Positions 47,481-53,891 of a DNA stretch of 64,000 bases are shown here, piece after piece. The DNA comes from Catellatospora sp. TT07R-123 (lineage in GTDB: Bacteria; Actinomycetota; Actinomycetes; Mycobacteriales; Micromonosporaceae), in the NCBI RefSeq assembly GCF_018327705.1, contig NZ_BNEM01000002.1, forward strand, positions 2,108,001-2,172,000. The letters are read 5' to 3'. The notes beneath the pieces are model-generated. The model had not been told where the DNA came from, made no database searches, and was given only the letters and a program-made list of their open reading frames with translations. How positions within the stretch are numbered: position 1 is the first letter of the stretch; every line of letters begins with the position of its first letter. Both the position numbers and the translations under genes were made by a program.

Positions 47481-48227
47481 TCAGGCACGCCGGTAGAGCA
47501 GGTCGAAGATCTGCCGCCCGGCGGCGACGCCGCGCTGCTCGAACTTGGTCAGCGGCCGGTGGGCGGGGCGGGGGGCGTAGCCGTCGTGCAGGTTGACCAG
47601 TCCCTCGTCGGCCGACAGGACCTCGGCCATCTGCTCGGCGTAGTCGGCCCAGTCGGTGGCGCAGTGCAGCACGCCGCCGACGGCCAGCCGCGAGCGCAGC
47701 AGCGCCACGGTGTCGGGCTGGATCAGCCGCCGCTTGTGGTGGCGGGCCTTGGGCCACGGGTCCGGGAAGTAGACGTGCACGGCGTCGAGGGCGCCCTCGG
47801 CGAGCATGTGCCGCACCAGGTGCAGCGCGTCGCCCTGCGCCACCCGTACGTTGGCCAGGTCCTGCTGCTCGACCACGGCCAGCAGGTTGCCCAGGCCGGG
47901 CGGGAACACCTCGACGGCCAGGTAGTCGCGGCCGGGGTCGGCGGCGGCCATCGCGGCGGTGGCGTCGCCCATCCCGGAGCCGATCTCCAGCACCAGCGGC
48001 GCCCGGCGGCCGAACAGCGCGACCTGGTCGATCGGGGTCCACGGCTCGGCGATGGTGACCCCGTAGCGCGGCCACAGCCGGGTCAGCGCGTCCTCGTGGC
48101 GGCCGCTCACCCGCCCCCGGCGGGGGTAGAACGTGGTGATCCGGGTGCGGTGGCGCCCGTCGGGCAGCACGTCGTCCGGTTCGGCGTCGTCGAGGTCGGC
48201 GGCGGGCACGAGGTCAGCGGAGGTCAC
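47481..48227 (-). CDS. trmB: tRNA (guanine-N7-)-methyltransferase
   Basis: A 248-residue enzyme that methylates G46 in the tRNA variable loop. The SAM motif VLEIGSGMGDATAAMA is followed by YLAVEVFPPGLGNLL and the TrmB signature VYFPDPWPKARHHKRRL. The C-terminal end TKFEQRGVAAGRQIFDL is also characteristic. The start is GTG at 48227, although a ribosome-binding site is not obvious. Confidence 0.95.
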   Translation of the reverse strand: MTSADLVPAADLDDAEPDDVLPDGRHRTRITTFYPRRGRVSGRHEDALTRLWPRYGVTIAEPWTPIDQVALFGRRAPLVLEIGSGMGDATAAMAAADPGRDYLAVEVFPPGLGNLLAVVEQQDLANVRVAQGDALHLVRHMLAEGALDAVHVYFPDPWPKARHHKRRLIQPDTVALLRSRLAVGGVLHCATDWADYAEQMAEVLSADEGLVNLHDGYAPRPAHRPLTKFEQRGVAAGRQIFDLLYRRA

Positions 48228-48299: not shown

Positions 48300-48506
48300 T
48301 CAACGAGCGAGGGCCTGGCCCTGCTTGTCGTTGAACTTGCCGACCAGGATCATGATGAAGTCGATGAGCACCCATACGCCCAGGCCACCGAAGGTGACCA
48401 GCTGGAGGATGCCGGTGCCGACCTTGCCGACGTAGAAGCGGTGCACGCCCAGCACGCCGAGGAAGAAGCAGAGCAGCAGGGTCACGAGCCAGGACTTGCT
48501 GTTCAC
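48300..48506 (-). CDS. TM2-domain membrane protein
   Basis: A 68-residue protein of two helices: SWLVTLLLCFFLGVLGVHRFY, then LQLVTFGGLGVWVLIDFIMIL. The HRFYVGKVGTGI turn between them is the TM2 signature. Function is unknown in bacteria. The start is GTG at 48506 with AAGGA 6 nt upstream. Confidence 0.88.
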   Translation of the reverse strand: MNSKSWLVTLLLCFFLGVLGVHRFYVGKVGTGILQLVTFGGLGVWVLIDFIMILVGKFNDKQGQALAR

Positions 48507-48697
48507 AGGGGTTCCTTCTGTCGAGGGATCGCGATTCCCGCCGCCAGCCGGACGGCGGGAACCGGAACGTAGCAACCTGTGCGCTCCATCACATCGGCCG
48601 CAACGGCCGCAATGATCATGCGTTCGGTGGACGGATGCGCCGGGGCGGCCGGACCGCTACCATCGGGGGCAGACCGACCGATGCCGAAGGAGGAGCC

Positions 48698-48763
48698 ATG
48701 ACCCGCGCGCTCCCCGCATCGACGCTGTCGGTAGTACGCGTAGCCGAACCGGGCCGCGCGTAA
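48698..48763 (+). CDS. Putative Val-rich leader peptide of valS
   Basis: A 21-codon ORF, MTRALPASTLSVVRVAEPGR plus Ala, begins at ATG 48698 with a textbook AAGGAGGAG ribosome-binding site 3-4 nt upstream and ends TAA at 48761-48763. It contains SVVRVA, and all three valines are GTA (48731-48736 and 48740-48742), a very rare valine codon in this GC-rich genome. A hairpin follows, then valS 84 bp downstream. The layout fits a leader peptide whose ribosome stalls when charged Val-tRNA is scarce. The role is inferred from layout and codon choice alone. Confidence 0.65.
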   Translation: MTRALPASTLSVVRVAEPGRA

Positions 48764-48769
48764 TCCTTC

Positions 48770-48798
48770 GATCACCGCGCCCGACGCGCGCGGTGGTC
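48770..48798 (+). promoter_or_regulatory. Candidate attenuator hairpin of valS
   Basis: GATCACCGCGC (48770-48780) pairs with GCGCGGTGGTC (48788-48798), with one G-T wobble and a 7-nt loop. CCGCGCG inside the leader ORF (48754-48760) can instead pair with CGCGCGG (48787-48793), giving a mutually exclusive structure. No T-tract follows; the next 20 nt are pyrimidine-rich. Confidence 0.5.
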
Positions 48799-48847
48799 AC
48801 CCAACCTCTCTCTCGCGTCCGGGCGCCATACCCACCGAGGTGAGGTC

Positions 48848-51346
48848 ATGAGCCTTCCGGAGAAGCCCTCGATCGACGGGCTGGCCGACAGGTGGTCCCA
48901 GCGCTGGGACGCCGACCAGCTGTACCGCTTCGACCGCGCGGCGCCGCGCGAGCGCGTGTTCGCCATCGACACCCCGCCGCCGACGGCCAGCGGCGCCCTG
49001 CACGTGGGGCACGTGTTCTCGTACACCCAGACCGACGTGCTGGCCCGGTTCCAGCGCATGCGCGGGCGCGAGGTGTTCTACCCGATGGGGTGGGACGACA
49101 ACGGCCTGCCGACCGAGCGCCGGGTGCAGCACCGGTTCGGGGTGCGCTGCGACCCGTCCCTGCCGTACGACCCGGACTTCACGCCGCCGGAGCAGCCGGG
49201 CCGCGAGCAGGTGCCGGTGTCGCGGCGCAACTTCACCGAGCTGTGCGCCCGGCAGACCGAGCTGGACGAGCGCGCCTTCGAGGAGCTGTTCCGGCTGGTG
49301 GGGCTGTCGGTGGACTGGTCGCTGCTCTACACGACGATCGGCGAGCGGGCGCGGGCGGTGTCGCAGCGGGCGTTCCTGCGGGCCCTGGCGCGCGGGGAGG
49401 CGTACCAGGCGCAGGCGCCGACGCTGTGGGACACCACGTTCCGTACCGCGGTGGCGCAGGCCGAGACCGAGGACCGGGAGCGGCCGGGGGCGTACCACCG
49501 GATCGCCTTCCACCCCGACGGCGCCGCCGCCGACCCGATCATCGTGGCGACCACGCGGCCGGAACTGCTGCCCGCCTGTGTGGCGCTGGTGGCGCACCCG
49601 GACGACGCCCGCTACGCGCCGCTGTTCGGCACGAGCGTGCGCACGCCCGGGTTCGGCGCCCGGGTGCCGGTGCTGGCGCATCCGCTGGCCGACCCCGCCA
49701 AGGGCACCGGCATCGCGATGATCTGCACGTTCGGCGACGCCACCGACGTGATCTGGTGGCGCGAGCTGGACCTGCCGACCCGCCCGGTGCTGGGCTTCGA
49801 CGGCCGGCTGCGGCCCGAGGCCCCCGAGCACCTGGACGAGCAGGGGCGGGCGGCGTACGCGCGGCTGGCCGGGCTGACCCCCGCCTCGGCCCGCGAGCAG
49901 GTGACCGCGCTGCTGCGCGAAACGGGTGACCTGCTCGGCGAGCCGGAGCCGATCAAGCACCCGGTGAAGTTCTACGAGCGCGGCGAGAAGCCGCTGGAGA
50001 TCGTGCCGACGCGCCAGTGGTACGTGCGCAACGGCGGCCGCGACCCCGGACTGCGCGCCGCCCTGCTGGCCCGGGGCAGGGAGCTGAACTGGCAGCCCGC
50101 CCACATGCGCACCCGGTACGAGCACTGGGTGCACGGCCTGGCCGGGGACTGGCTGATCAGCCGCCAGCGGTTCTTCGGCGTGCCGATCCCGGTGTGGTAT
50201 CCGCTGGACGCCGACGGGCAGCCCGATCACGGCCGCCCGCTCACGCCCGCCGAGGGCGCGCTGCCGATCGACCCCAGCTCCGACACCCCGAGCGGCTACA
50301 CCGAGGAGCAGCGTGGGGTGCCGGGCGGGTTCACGGGCGACCCGGACGTGATGGACACCTGGGCGACCTCGTCGCTGACCCCGCAGATCGCGGGCGGCTG
50401 GGGCCACGACGACGACCTGTTCGCGCGGGTGTTCCCGATGGACCTGCGGCCGCAGGCGCACGAGATCATCCGTACCTGGCTGTTCGCGACGGTGCTGCGC
50501 GGCCACGCCGAGCACGGGGAGCTGCCGTGGCGCACCGCCGCGATCGCGGGCTGGATCCTGGACCCGGACCGGAAGAAGATGTCGAAGTCGGTGGGCAACG
50601 TGGTGACCCCGATCGGGCTGCTGCGCGAGTACGGCTCCGACGCGGTGCGCTACTGGGCCGCCGCGGCCCGGCCCGGCGCCGACACGGCGTTCGACACCGG
50701 CCAGATGCGCATCGGCCGCCGCCTGGCCACGAAGATCCTCAACGCCACCCGGTTCGTGCTCGGCCTGGGCGAACCCGCTGCGGACGCCGCGATCACCGCG
50801 CCGCTGGACCGGGCGCTGCTGGCCGCGCTGCGGCCGGTGCTGGCCGAGGCGACCGAGGCGCTGGAGCAGTACGACCAGGGCCGTGCCCTGGCCGCCGCCG
50901 AGCGCTTCTTCTGGACGTTCTGCGACGACTACCTGGAGCTGGTGAAGGTGCGCGCCTACGGCGAGCACGGCGCGGCCGCCGCCGACTCGGCCCGCCTCGC
51001 CCTGCGCACCGCCCTGTCGGTGCTGCTGCGGCTGCTGGCCCCCGTGCTCCCGTTCGTGACCGAGGAAGCCTGGTCGTGGTGGCACGACGGCAGCATCCAC
51101 CGGGCCCCGTGGCCGACCTCCGCCGAGCTCGACGGCGGCGGCGACCCCGCGGTCCTGTCCGCCGCCATCGAGGCGATCGAGGCGGTGCGCCGGGCCAAGT
51201 CGGAGGCGAAGGTGTCGATGCGTACCCCCGTGTCGGCCCTGACCCTGCCCGACGGCGACCGGCACGACGCGATCGCGGCGGACGTGCGCGACGCGGGCGT
51301 GATCACCACCCTCACCCGTGGCGCCCCGCTCGCCGTCACCCTCTGA
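48848..51346 (+). CDS. valS: Valyl-tRNA synthetase
   Basis: An 832-residue class I synthetase. The HIGH motif is HVGH at 52-55, the KMSKS loop is at 577-581, and the ValS-specific [14 protein letters not shown] and [14 protein letters not shown] segments are present. An editing domain lies between about 190 and 340. The protein ends shortly after the anticodon-binding domain, without the long C-terminal coiled coil of many bacterial ValS; this short form occurs in actinobacteria. The ATG at 48848 has GGTGAGG upstream. A 21-codon valine leader ORF and hairpin precede it. Confidence 0.95.
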
Positions 51347-51494
51347 GCGGGGCCCCTTCGCACCCCCTCTGAGCTGGGAAGTGTCTGAGTTGGGTGCTAA
51401 ATGAAAAAAATGCGATGTGCACCACATGTGCCGGGCGATCGGGGGCGGGCGGGGCAGTCTTGATCAGCCCCGTCCCTCCCCCGAAGGTGCTGCC

Positions 51495-53891
51495 ATGTCG
51501 CGAAAACCCCTGGCCAAGCGACTTACCAAGATCGGCGTGATCACCGCCGTGGCGGGTGTCGTGCTGGTCGCGGCCGCCGCCCCCGCGGCCGCCCTGGCCG
51601 ACTGGGCCATCGAGCAGACCGCGCCCTCGTACGAGTCGCTGCCGCAGGTGCTGCGCGAGCCGACCACGGCCCAGGCCAGCTACCTGTACGCGAACGACGG
51701 CAAGACGCTGATCACCACGTTCTACGACCAGAACCGCCGGGACGTGCCGCTGGACCAGGTCGCGCCCGCGATGCGCGACGCGGTGGTGGCCGCCGAGGAC
51801 ACCCGCTTCTACGAGCACCACGGCGTGGACGTGCGCGGCGTGCTGCGCGCCGTGGTCGCCAACAGCGCCAGCGGCGGGGTCGAGCAGGGCGCCTCGACGC
51901 TGACCATGCAGTACGTGCGCAACGTGCTCAAGAACGACCCGGGGCTGACCCCCGAGGAGCGCGAGTCCGCCACCGAGCAGACCGCCTCCCGCAAGATCCG
52001 CGAAGCCCGGTACGCGCTGTCGCTGGAGCAGAAGCTCACCAAGAACCAGATCCTGGAGCGCTACCTCAACATCGCGTACTTCGGCGCGGGCGCCTACGGC
52101 GTCGACGCCGCCGCGCACACCTACTTCTCCAAGGACGCCGCCGACCTGAGCCTGGGCGAGGCGTCGCTGCTGGCGGGCCTGCTCCAGGCGCCCGAAGCGG
52201 ACAACCCGCTGTCGCAGGGCCTCGACCGGGCGGTGGAGCGCCGCGGCTACGTGCTCAAGGCGATGGTCGGCACCGGCGCGATCGACCAGGCGCAGGCCGA
52301 CGCCGCCGCCGCCACGACGCCGGTGCTCAAGCACGGCTCCTCCCCCAACGACTGCGTCGCCTCGAAGAACGAGTGGGGCTTCTTCTGCGACTACTTCCGC
52401 ACCTGGTGGAAGGGGCAGCCCGCGTTCGGCGACACCCCCGAGGCCCGGGTGCAGGCGCTGCGGCTCGGCGGATACCGCATCGTCACCACGCTCGACCCGG
52501 CGATCGCCACCGAGGCGCAGCGGCAGGTCGTGAAGGTGTACGGGTACACCAACAAGCGCGCCCTGCCGATGGCCGTGGTCGAGCCCGGCACCGGCCGGGT
52601 GCTGGCGATGGCCGTCAACCGGCACTACAACCCGGCCGACAAGCCCGGCAACTCGGTGAACCAGCTCGTCGCGGGCGCCGACACCGCGCACGGCTACCAG
52701 GCCGGCTCGACGTTCAAGATGTTCACGATGCTGGCGGCCCTGGAGCAGGGCAAGACGCTGGACACCACCTTCGACTCGCCCAGCCGCCTGGTCACCAAGT
52801 GGCCGGACTCGGGCAAGGACACCAGCTGCGACGGCCTCTGGTGCCCCAAGAACGCCAACCCGGCCTTCATGGACGGCGACCGGAACATGTGGACCGGCTT
52901 CGGCCGCTCGGTGAACACGTACTTCGTGTGGCTGGAGCAGCAGGTGGGCGCCGACCGCGCGGTCGAGATGGCGCAGCGGCTCGGCATCCAGTTCCGCGAC
53001 TCCGGCGACGCCGACCGGGCCCGGACCAGCCCGGACAGCTGGGGCTCGTTCACGCTGGGCGTCTCGCTGACCACCCCGCTGGACCTGGCCAACGCGTACG
53101 CGACGCTGGCCGCCGACGGGCAGTACTGCACGCCGGTGCCGGTGCGCGAGGTGGCCACCGCCGCCGGTGAGCAGCTGAACGTGGGGCAGCCGGACTGCCA
53201 CCAGGCGGTCGACAGCGACGTGGCGCGGGCCGCCACCGACGCGGCCCGCTGCCCGGTGGGCCAGCAGAGCGCGTACCACGGCTGCGACGGCGGCACGGCG
53301 ACCGCGGTCTCGCAGCTCATGGGCGGGCGCCCGGTCGCGGGCAAGACCGGCAGCTCGACCGACAACATGACCGAGACGTTCGTGGCGTACACGCCGCAGC
53401 TGGCCGCCGCGGCGATCGCCGCCAACCCGGACAGCTCGCTCGACAAGGTGGGCGCGGCGGTGCTGCCGCAGGTCTACCGGGCCGTGGCGGCGACCCTGTC
53501 CACCGGCTCCAAGCCGCTGGAGGTCCGGCAGTTCGTGGCGCCGACCCGTACCAAGGTCGTCGCCGACGACCGCGACCGCGGCGACCTGCCCGGTAACGAG
53601 CCGACCACCGAGCCGTCGCCCTCGCCGTCTCCGTCGCCGAGCGTGCAGCCGTCGCCCAGCCGCGACAGCCACCATGACGGCAAGGGCAACGGCGACCAGG
53701 GCAATTCCGACAAGAACAACCAGGACAAGGGCAGCCAGGACAAGCCGCAGAGCGACAAGCCGGGCAAGCCCAAGCCGACCCCGTCGGCCAAGCCGAGCGC
53801 GTCGGTCAAGCCGACCGCGTCCAGCAGCCCCAGCCCGAGCCAGGACGAGAGCAAGCCGAGTCCGCAGCCCAGCCGCAGCCGGCGGCACTGA
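51495..53891 (+). CDS. Class A penicillin-binding protein (bifunctional)
   Basis: A 798-residue membrane enzyme that polymerises and cross-links peptidoglycan. The N-terminal helix (about 12-35) is followed by the glycosyltransferase domain with catalytic Glu101 in EDTRFYEHHGVD and further motifs GASTLTMQYVRN and RKIREARYAL. The transpeptidase domain has STFK (Ser405, Lys408), SVN (472-474) and KTG from Lys617. The last 110 residues form a Ser/Pro/Lys-rich low-complexity tail. The ATG at 51495 has GAAGGTG upstream. A hairpin terminator follows. Confidence 0.94.
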   Translation: MSRKPLAKRLTKIGVITAVAGVVLVAAAAPAAALADWAIEQTAPSYESLPQVLREPTTAQASYLYANDGKTLITTFYDQNRRDVPLDQVAPAMRDAVVAAEDTRFYEHHGVDVRGVLRAVVANSASGGVEQGASTLTMQYVRNVLKNDPGLTPEERESATEQTASRKIREARYALSLEQKLTKNQILERYLNIAYFGAGAYGVDAAAHTYFSKDAADLSLGEASLLAGLLQAPEADNPLSQGLDRAVERRGYVLKAMVGTGAIDQAQADAAAATTPVLKHGSSPNDCVASKNEWGFFCDYFRTWWKGQPAFGDTPEARVQALRLGGYRIVTTLDPAIATEAQRQVVKVYGYTNKRALPMAVVEPGTGRVLAMAVNRHYNPADKPGNSVNQLVAGADTAHGYQAGSTFKMFTMLAALEQGKTLDTTFDSPSRLVTKWPDSGKDTSCDGLWCPKNANPAFMDGDRNMWTGFGRSVNTYFVWLEQQVGADRAVEMAQRLGIQFRDSGDADRARTSPDSWGSFTLGVSLTTPLDLANAYATLAADGQYCTPVPVREVATAAGEQLNVGQPDCHQAVDSDVARAATDAARCPVGQQSAYHGCDGGTATAVSQLMGGRPVAGKTGSSTDNMTETFVAYTPQLAAAAIAANPDSSLDKVGAAVLPQVYRAVAATLSTGSKPLEVRQFVAPTRTKVVADDRDRGDLPGNEPTTEPSPSPSPSPSVQPSPSRDSHHDGKGNGDQGNSDKNNQDKGSQDKPQSDKPGKPKPTPSAKPSASVKPTASSSPSPSQDESKPSPQPSRSRRH

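Follow-up and report, generated by a model that had tools for sequence, protein, structure and literature searches.

The sequence upstream of a second valyl-tRNA synthetase gene in Catellatospora sp. TT07R-123 is in all likelihood a ribosome-mediated leader-peptide attenuator, one that senses the charging of valine tRNA and controls this synthetase. The gene lies in a 64-kb stretch of DNA that was analysed as a whole (the window). The leader writes valine mostly as GTA and the gene almost only as GTG, which makes sensing of valine tRNA through translation of the leader very likely. The initial annotation had proposed attenuation by a valine leader ahead of valS; the proposal passed the sequence tests that had been named with it, but the signature of an intrinsic terminator is missing.

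The gene, initially called valS, does encode a valyl-tRNA synthetase, but it is the second, alternative enzyme (alt-valS, 48848..51346, plus strand, 832 aa). Its product scores 1402.3 bits against the NCBIfam model alt_ValS (NF000540), exceeding the cut-off of 900, and 575 bits against the standard valS model TIGR00422, under the cut-off of 612. A canonical ValRS is additionally encoded in all 11 genomes of the genus, the source genome included, and is the more conserved of the two, with genus-wide identities of 93-98% as against 81-95% for alt-ValS. All nine hand-picked genomes of the family have the canonical enzyme, and eight of them have a second, matched as the alternative type. Alt-ValS was matched at E 1e-100 in 266 of 300 family genomes, and it is seemingly dispensable because the other 34 (G021, for example) have no match. 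The neighbouring genes are a divergent small membrane protein with a TM2 domain (48300-48506, minus strand) and a Methyltransf_4 protein (47481-48227, minus strand) upstream of the leader, and a transglycosylase-transpeptidase (penicillin-binding protein; 51417-53891, plus strand) downstream of alt-valS; none of them has an obvious tie to valine.

The leader is a 21-codon ORF (48698..48763, plus strand) encoding MTRALPASTLSVVRVAEPGRA, followed by a stop codon that lies 84 nt before the ATG of alt-valS. Its Shine-Dalgarno sequence, AAGGAGGAG, read from the sequence at 48687..48695, is strong, as had been noted, and the AGGAGGAG within it is unchanged across the 11 rows of the genus. The peptide contains SVVRVA, and its three valines (Val12, Val13 and Val15) are all GTA, these codons starting at 48731, 48734 and 48740 within the regulatory series GTA GTA CGC GTA (48731..48742). 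The initial annotation was right that GTA is rare in this genome: it accounts for 51 of 1434 Val codons (3.6%) in long ORFs of high GC3 in the window, and for 294 of 8804 (3.3%) in 234 heuristically predicted genes from the window plus 20 stretches of 20 kb. The chance of three out of three leader valines being GTA is 4.5e-5.

A -10-like TACCAT (48658..48663) resembles a promoter element and points to a transcription start at about 48670, upstream of the leader, as attenuation by this ORF had presupposed. TANCAT is found 37-41 nt ahead of the leader start in 10 of the 11 genus rows, the exception (L093) having TAGCAT farther upstream; a sigma-70 consensus scan gave no site. The leader was also found at one locus each in three further genera (L127, L128 and L129, see below), where the start codon of the leader has a TANNNT box 13 nt ahead of it; a box so close suggests that in these three the leader mRNA may itself be leaderless. 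Leaderless polycysteine ORFs were reportedly described by Canestrari in 2020, and the leader start in L127-L129, 13 nt from a -10-like box, is comparable. A short ORF with initiation signals ahead of the gene is thus present both in the 11 genomes with a Shine-Dalgarno sequence and in the three with a start beside a -10-like box.

Conservation of the ORF and its Val codons in relatives was borne out in all 11 genus genomes and in the three additional genera, with no strong match beyond them in the genomes searched. Within the genus the flank upstream of the leader diverges, and VVRVA, GTACGCGTA, the Shine-Dalgarno sequence, the ORF and the stop are all kept. The N-terminus of the peptide is variable and is followed by a fixed core, VVRVA[ED][PS]GRA. 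The sole indel inside the ORF is 6 nt long and in frame, and the ORF closes with TAA or TAG; the in-frame indel and the conserved stop fit a leader ORF that is translated. A covariance model run on 250 family genomes recovered the leader in the three further genera, again directly upstream of alt-valS. The peptides there are MTHHLQAVVRVADQGRA, MTHRQAVVVRVPNKGRA and MTHTFQAVVRVANSGHA, with 3, 4 and 3 valines, all of them GTA, the fourth GTA being in L128. VVRV and GTA-CGC-GTA are invariant in all 14 leaders; codons 13 and 15 are GTA in every one, and codon 12 is GTA in six and GTC in eight. (The counts exclude L002, L003 and L094 (second locus of the gene in G009).)

A second covariance model, run on 354 family genomes, picked out these 14 genomes again, all with E no higher than 1.5e-12; the genome ranked after them had 9e-5. 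The leader is therefore confined to 14 of 354 genomes and 4 of 44 genera, and on this sample the element is not general within Micromonosporaceae. When 394 genomes from the class and 397 from the order were sampled, the source genome alone matched strongly (other matches 8e-4; 9.4e-5 and 4.1e-4). Model searches over more than 40 genomes used stricter filters, which lose weak matches, and matches at E of 9e-5 or above were taken as chance, eight other such family genomes by E value alone. Among the weak matches, G341 was rejected since it has no alt-valS in the 2.8 kb examined, and L142, L143 (G018, G759) and L144 (G028:C68) were rejected as being without GTACGCGTA and GTAGTACG.

The leaderless genes used for comparison are 19 alt-valS loci of the family and the best 80 of at least 587 GTDB candidates. 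Short-ORF scans of these loci found no arrangement of VVRV and hairpin; scattered short ORFs were seen in L040, L060 and L067, and in L095, L096, L099, L103 and L104 (loose filter), of which a strict filter left one, in L104. Model R2 gave nothing under E 0.06 in 85 of the 99 loci and nothing under E 0.3 in the remaining 14. In a quick tree of all 113 rows a branch with SH-aLRT 100 separates the 14 leader-associated alt-ValS from the rest, the GTDB collection being one that may omit the nearest relatives of the source genome. Loci named Micromonospora cluster in this tree with loci of one family genus. Among canonical valS loci, L114 has no short ORF led by a Shine-Dalgarno sequence upstream, and neither L114 nor L115 has a match to the leader model.

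Three pairings can be drawn in the leader RNA, and their statistics were calculated on 14 rows, 11 of them distinct. The first, hairpin 1:2 (48735..48762; 48735-48741 with 48756-48762 and 48743-48745 with 48752-48754), overlaps the Val codons and the leader stop codon. It is paired in 99.1% of cells over the 11 distinct rows, which is little of a test because 8 of its 10 pairs never vary. The second, hairpin 3:4 (48770..48798, arms 48770-48780 and 48788-48798), had been predicted initially and is well supported: it has 11 bp and about -21 kcal/mol, with none of 300 dinucleotide shuffles as stable, and z of -2.6 to -6.2 in the 8 of 14 rows that were folded. Of its cells 99.2% are paired; two of its pairs show changes on both sides and three on one side only. 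The genus rows alone give no covariation above shuffles; the compensatory changes appear once the three further genera are added, and with all 14 rows this is a covarying stem of the kind that had been looked for. Taken jointly, 1:2 and 3:4 are matched by at most 1 of 500 shuffles for cells paired, cells changed on both sides and covariation score, but doubly changed pairs are equalled by 55 of 500 and further pair types by 493 of 500.

The third pairing, 2:3, joins segment 2 (GGGCCGCGCG, the competitor strand, 48751..48760) through 48751-48758 to 48776-48779 and 48780-48782 in the 5' arm of the hairpin. The initial annotation had paired 48754-48760 with the 3' arm instead. That pairing exists, but the one with the 5' arm is better conserved: every cell of 2:3 is paired (100%), two of the pairs are doubly changed and 7 of 500 shuffles score as high, whereas 2:4 is paired in 97.7%, is reached by 171 of 500 shuffles and gives a weaker forced ensemble than 2:3 in all 14 rows. 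One of the eight pairs of 2:3 is gapped in 8 of 11 rows, and its covariation comes from the rows of L129, with two changes, and L127, with one. The whole 189-nt region is moderately better than its shuffles (z -1.63, 14 of 200 as stable).

From these pairings we infer both the stalling and the direction of the switch. When charged Val-tRNA is ample, the ribosome would read GTA-GTA-CGC-GTA through to the stop codon, 1:2 and 3:4 would form, and expression of alt-valS would be low. When the charged tRNA for GTA is scarce, the ribosome would stall at the GTA codons and cover segment 1, leaving segment 2 free to pair with segment 3 (48776-48782) as it emerges; 2:3 would then block hairpin 3:4, and alt-valS would be expressed. 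With a ribosome placed on the second Val codon, ensemble folding favours 3:4 over 2:3 in 13 of the 14 rows, by 0.6-13.4 kcal/mol (at most 3.0 kcal/mol in nine of the 13), and L129 alone prefers 2:3. The switch would for this reason depend on the kinetics of transcription, with 2:3 having to form first as the RNA is made. Since the leader stop is only 6 nt before 3:4, a ribosome waiting there would cover the base of the hairpin.

A scan of 48400-49000 for terminator patterns gave 0 sites, and by eye no run of T follows hairpin 3:4 in any of the 14 rows; an attenuator with an intrinsic U-tract terminator is thus not supported. An Rfam scan of the 64-kb window returned no family at gathering score, the T-box included. 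Hairpin 3:4 would probably act by tractless or Rho-dependent termination; action through the initiation of translation is possible at a rather lower likelihood. The corresponding rival, itself somewhat unlikely, is that the state of the leader sets the masking of the alt-valS Shine-Dalgarno sequence (GAGGTGAGG, 48837..48845, unchanged in the genus rows) by a complementary pyrimidine strand at 48804..48815, in the manner of the candidate translational T-boxes at actinobacterial ileS (PMC1262725, in its available sections). This would agree with the lack of a terminator pattern after the hairpin. It would agree too with an unpaired probability of the Shine-Dalgarno sequence of 0.11-0.12 in the 11 genus rows, as against means of 0.28-0.35 for linker shuffles (5-13 of 200 as low), and with the complementarity between the loop of 3:4 and a CGGGCGC block at 48820..48826, which is reached by 0 of 200 shuffles in L001, L084, L093 and L127 and by 12-76 of 200 in the other ten rows. 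However, the masking is not above chance in L127-L129, and replacing 3:4 with 2:3 raises the accessibility of the site only in L084 and L093, changes it little in most rows and lowers it in L127.

The strongest evidence for sensing of valine tRNA, and one independent of any structure prediction, is the mirror-image use of valine codons. The 14 leaders hold 3-4 Val codons each, 44 after the start, of which 35 are GTA, 8 GTC and 1 GTG; the 14 downstream genes, which are ValRS genes, hold 725, of which 664 are GTG, 60 GTC, 1 GTT and none GTA (Fisher 2e-40, ignoring shared ancestry, as do the Mann-Whitney and rank tests on codon use). In the source genome the 50 Val codons of alt-valS are 48 GTG and 2 GTC, which confirms the first impression that it has no in-frame GTA. 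GTG/(GTG+GTC) is 0.86-0.96 in the leader-bearing genes, 0.37-0.64 in the 19 leaderless family genes and 0.16-0.84 in the 80 others (the best 80 of at least 587 GTDB candidates), so that none of the 99 reaches the leader-bearing minimum; it is 0.54 in the canonical valS of the source genome. The bias appears to be maintained by selection, because the alt-ValS of the two deepest leader-bearing groups share only 63-66% protein identity.

Codon bias often follows expression, and the GTG bias of the gene could accordingly reflect expression level or local composition and have nothing to do with the leader. We consider this improbable. The median share of G-ending codons for Val is 0.92 in the leader-bearing genes (0.50 in the 19 family orthologues, 0.43 in the best 80 of at least 587 GTDB genes and 0.54 in the window pool). 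Given in the same order, Pro at 0.66 (0.80, 0.63, 0.68) and Arg at 0.39 (0.64, 0.38, 0.44) do also depart from the family orthologues, but both lie near the 80 others and the window pool. Leu at 0.85 (0.81, 0.66, 0.75), Ala at 0.44 (0.45, 0.44, 0.45), Thr at 0.33 (0.29, 0.32, 0.30), Gly at 0.28 (0.26, 0.20, 0.25) and Ser at 0.61 (0.55, 0.55, 0.65) are within 0.06 of the family orthologues, and valine alone leaves all comparison groups. The bias holds at 19 conserved Val columns (GTG in 254 of 258 leader-bearing cases as against 210 of 353 in the leaderless family genes) and, for the four genes examined, in every quarter of the sequence.

In stretches of four genomes alt-valS has the highest GTG share among 205, 29, 38 and 61 genes (binomial 1e-14, 4e-15, 3e-7 and 5e-7). 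These sets hold genes with at least 20 Val codons found by a simple ORF heuristic, alt-valS itself included, in 20 stretches plus the window (G000), 7 stretches (G026), 5 plus L127 (G028) and 6 plus L128 (G051). The lead over the next gene is wide in G000 (0.96, next 0.74) and G026 (0.94, next 0.56) and narrower for the other two genes (G051 0.84, next 0.76; G028 0.88, followed by two genes at 0.83). In these four genomes the canonical valS is near or somewhat above background, with GTG at 39 of 74 Val codons (G000), 32 of 77 (G026), 48 of 78 (G028) and 46 of 73 (G051).

It is more improbable still that the GTA codons are a mere by-product of hairpin 1:2, with the small ORF being neutral or a micropeptide. 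The bases of GTA13 do pair with the stop codon in this hairpin, and some GTA bases are thus also fixed by it; but the hairpin leaves both codon 12 and the last base of codon 15 unpaired, that last base nonetheless being invariant, L128 has a fourth GTA, and the Val codons of the gene itself are nearly all GTG. Least probable of all is sensing of a drug or metabolite by nascent-chain arrest in the style of the erm leaders, where Val-containing arrest motifs are known, since the VVRV core is indeed invariant in all 14 leaders but arrest would not account for the rare GTA in the leaders, the GTG valines in the gene or a ValRS as the target.

Sensing of valine-tRNA charging by leader translation, the preferred reading, gives the codon pattern a possible purpose. 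A gene needed while charging is lost would be expected to use the codons of other isoacceptors, and with Val codons that are nearly all GTG the alt-valS mRNA could itself still be translated at a time when GTA (and GTC) slow the ribosome. Selective tRNA charging predicts such mirror-image codon use in an attenuator together with a target that is translated in shortage. According to the available sections of the paper on that theory (PMC1183508), leaders use the codons sensitive to limitation, and other isoacceptors stay charged; the theory was developed for enterobacterial operons, whereas here the pattern shows in a synthetase gene purged almost completely of the other synonymous codons. Tentatively, alt-valS may be an emergency gene proofed against the loss of an isoacceptor, the leader sensing the loss of one Val-tRNA pool (GTA, partly GTC) and the coding sequence, purged of those codons, being made from the pool that survives. 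The natural trigger would then not have to be valine starvation; inhibition of the housekeeping ValRS might serve, as might damage to particular Val tRNAs. The four genera offer a natural test of selective charging, with sensor and target carrying complementary synonymous codons.

The available sections of a survey of synthetase operons in about 20 actinobacterial genomes (Seliverstov et al., 2005; PMC1262725) describe classical attenuators at trpS and leuS of Streptomyces; they name no valS case, and the genome list has no Micromonosporaceae. The Streptomyces attenuators resemble the present one in having a synthetase gene, a leader ORF with cognate codons and alternative hairpins; here, however, the amino acid is valine, the synthetase is the second one, and there is no poly-U terminator. 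The Cys leader peptides of mycobacteria described there are also leader ORFs without a conserved terminator, but they precede cysteine operons and have no conserved hairpins that could be terminators. As reported in the parts available, a His leader on two hisS paralogues of bacilli (PMC2965389) likewise places a leader peptide over duplicated synthetase copies, differing in that it concerns histidine, belongs to Firmicutes and was found via intrinsic terminators, and the uORF of Corynebacterium ilvB-II (PMC10272879) is likewise enriched in branched-chain residues ahead of a gene of that metabolism, but the operon is biosynthetic and valine is not the only residue. Among the open-licence papers listed for valS or valyl-tRNA synthetase, no title or abstract opening describes such a leader or attenuator. 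If the present reading is true, a valyl-tRNA synthetase would here be under a leader attenuator specific for valine, which would give a reason for these actinomycetes keeping two ValRS genes, one of them conditional.

It is worth adding some smaller observations on the genes. The class I signature HIGH reads HMGT or HMGS in the alt-ValS of L127-L129, and KMSKS is present as KMGKS in L129; the second His of HIGH is replaced by S or T in 5 of 113 alt-ValS (14 leader-bearing, 19 from the family and the best 80 of at least 587 GTDB sequences). An apparent internal TAG in alt-valS of G026 proved to be its terminal stop codon. Several leaderless alt-valS of the family (within L095-L113) and the canonical valS of L114 have, as judged by eye, a -10-like box only a few bases from the start codon. 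Because in leaderless genes the box adjoins the start codon, the leader region appears to have been inserted between promoter and gene.
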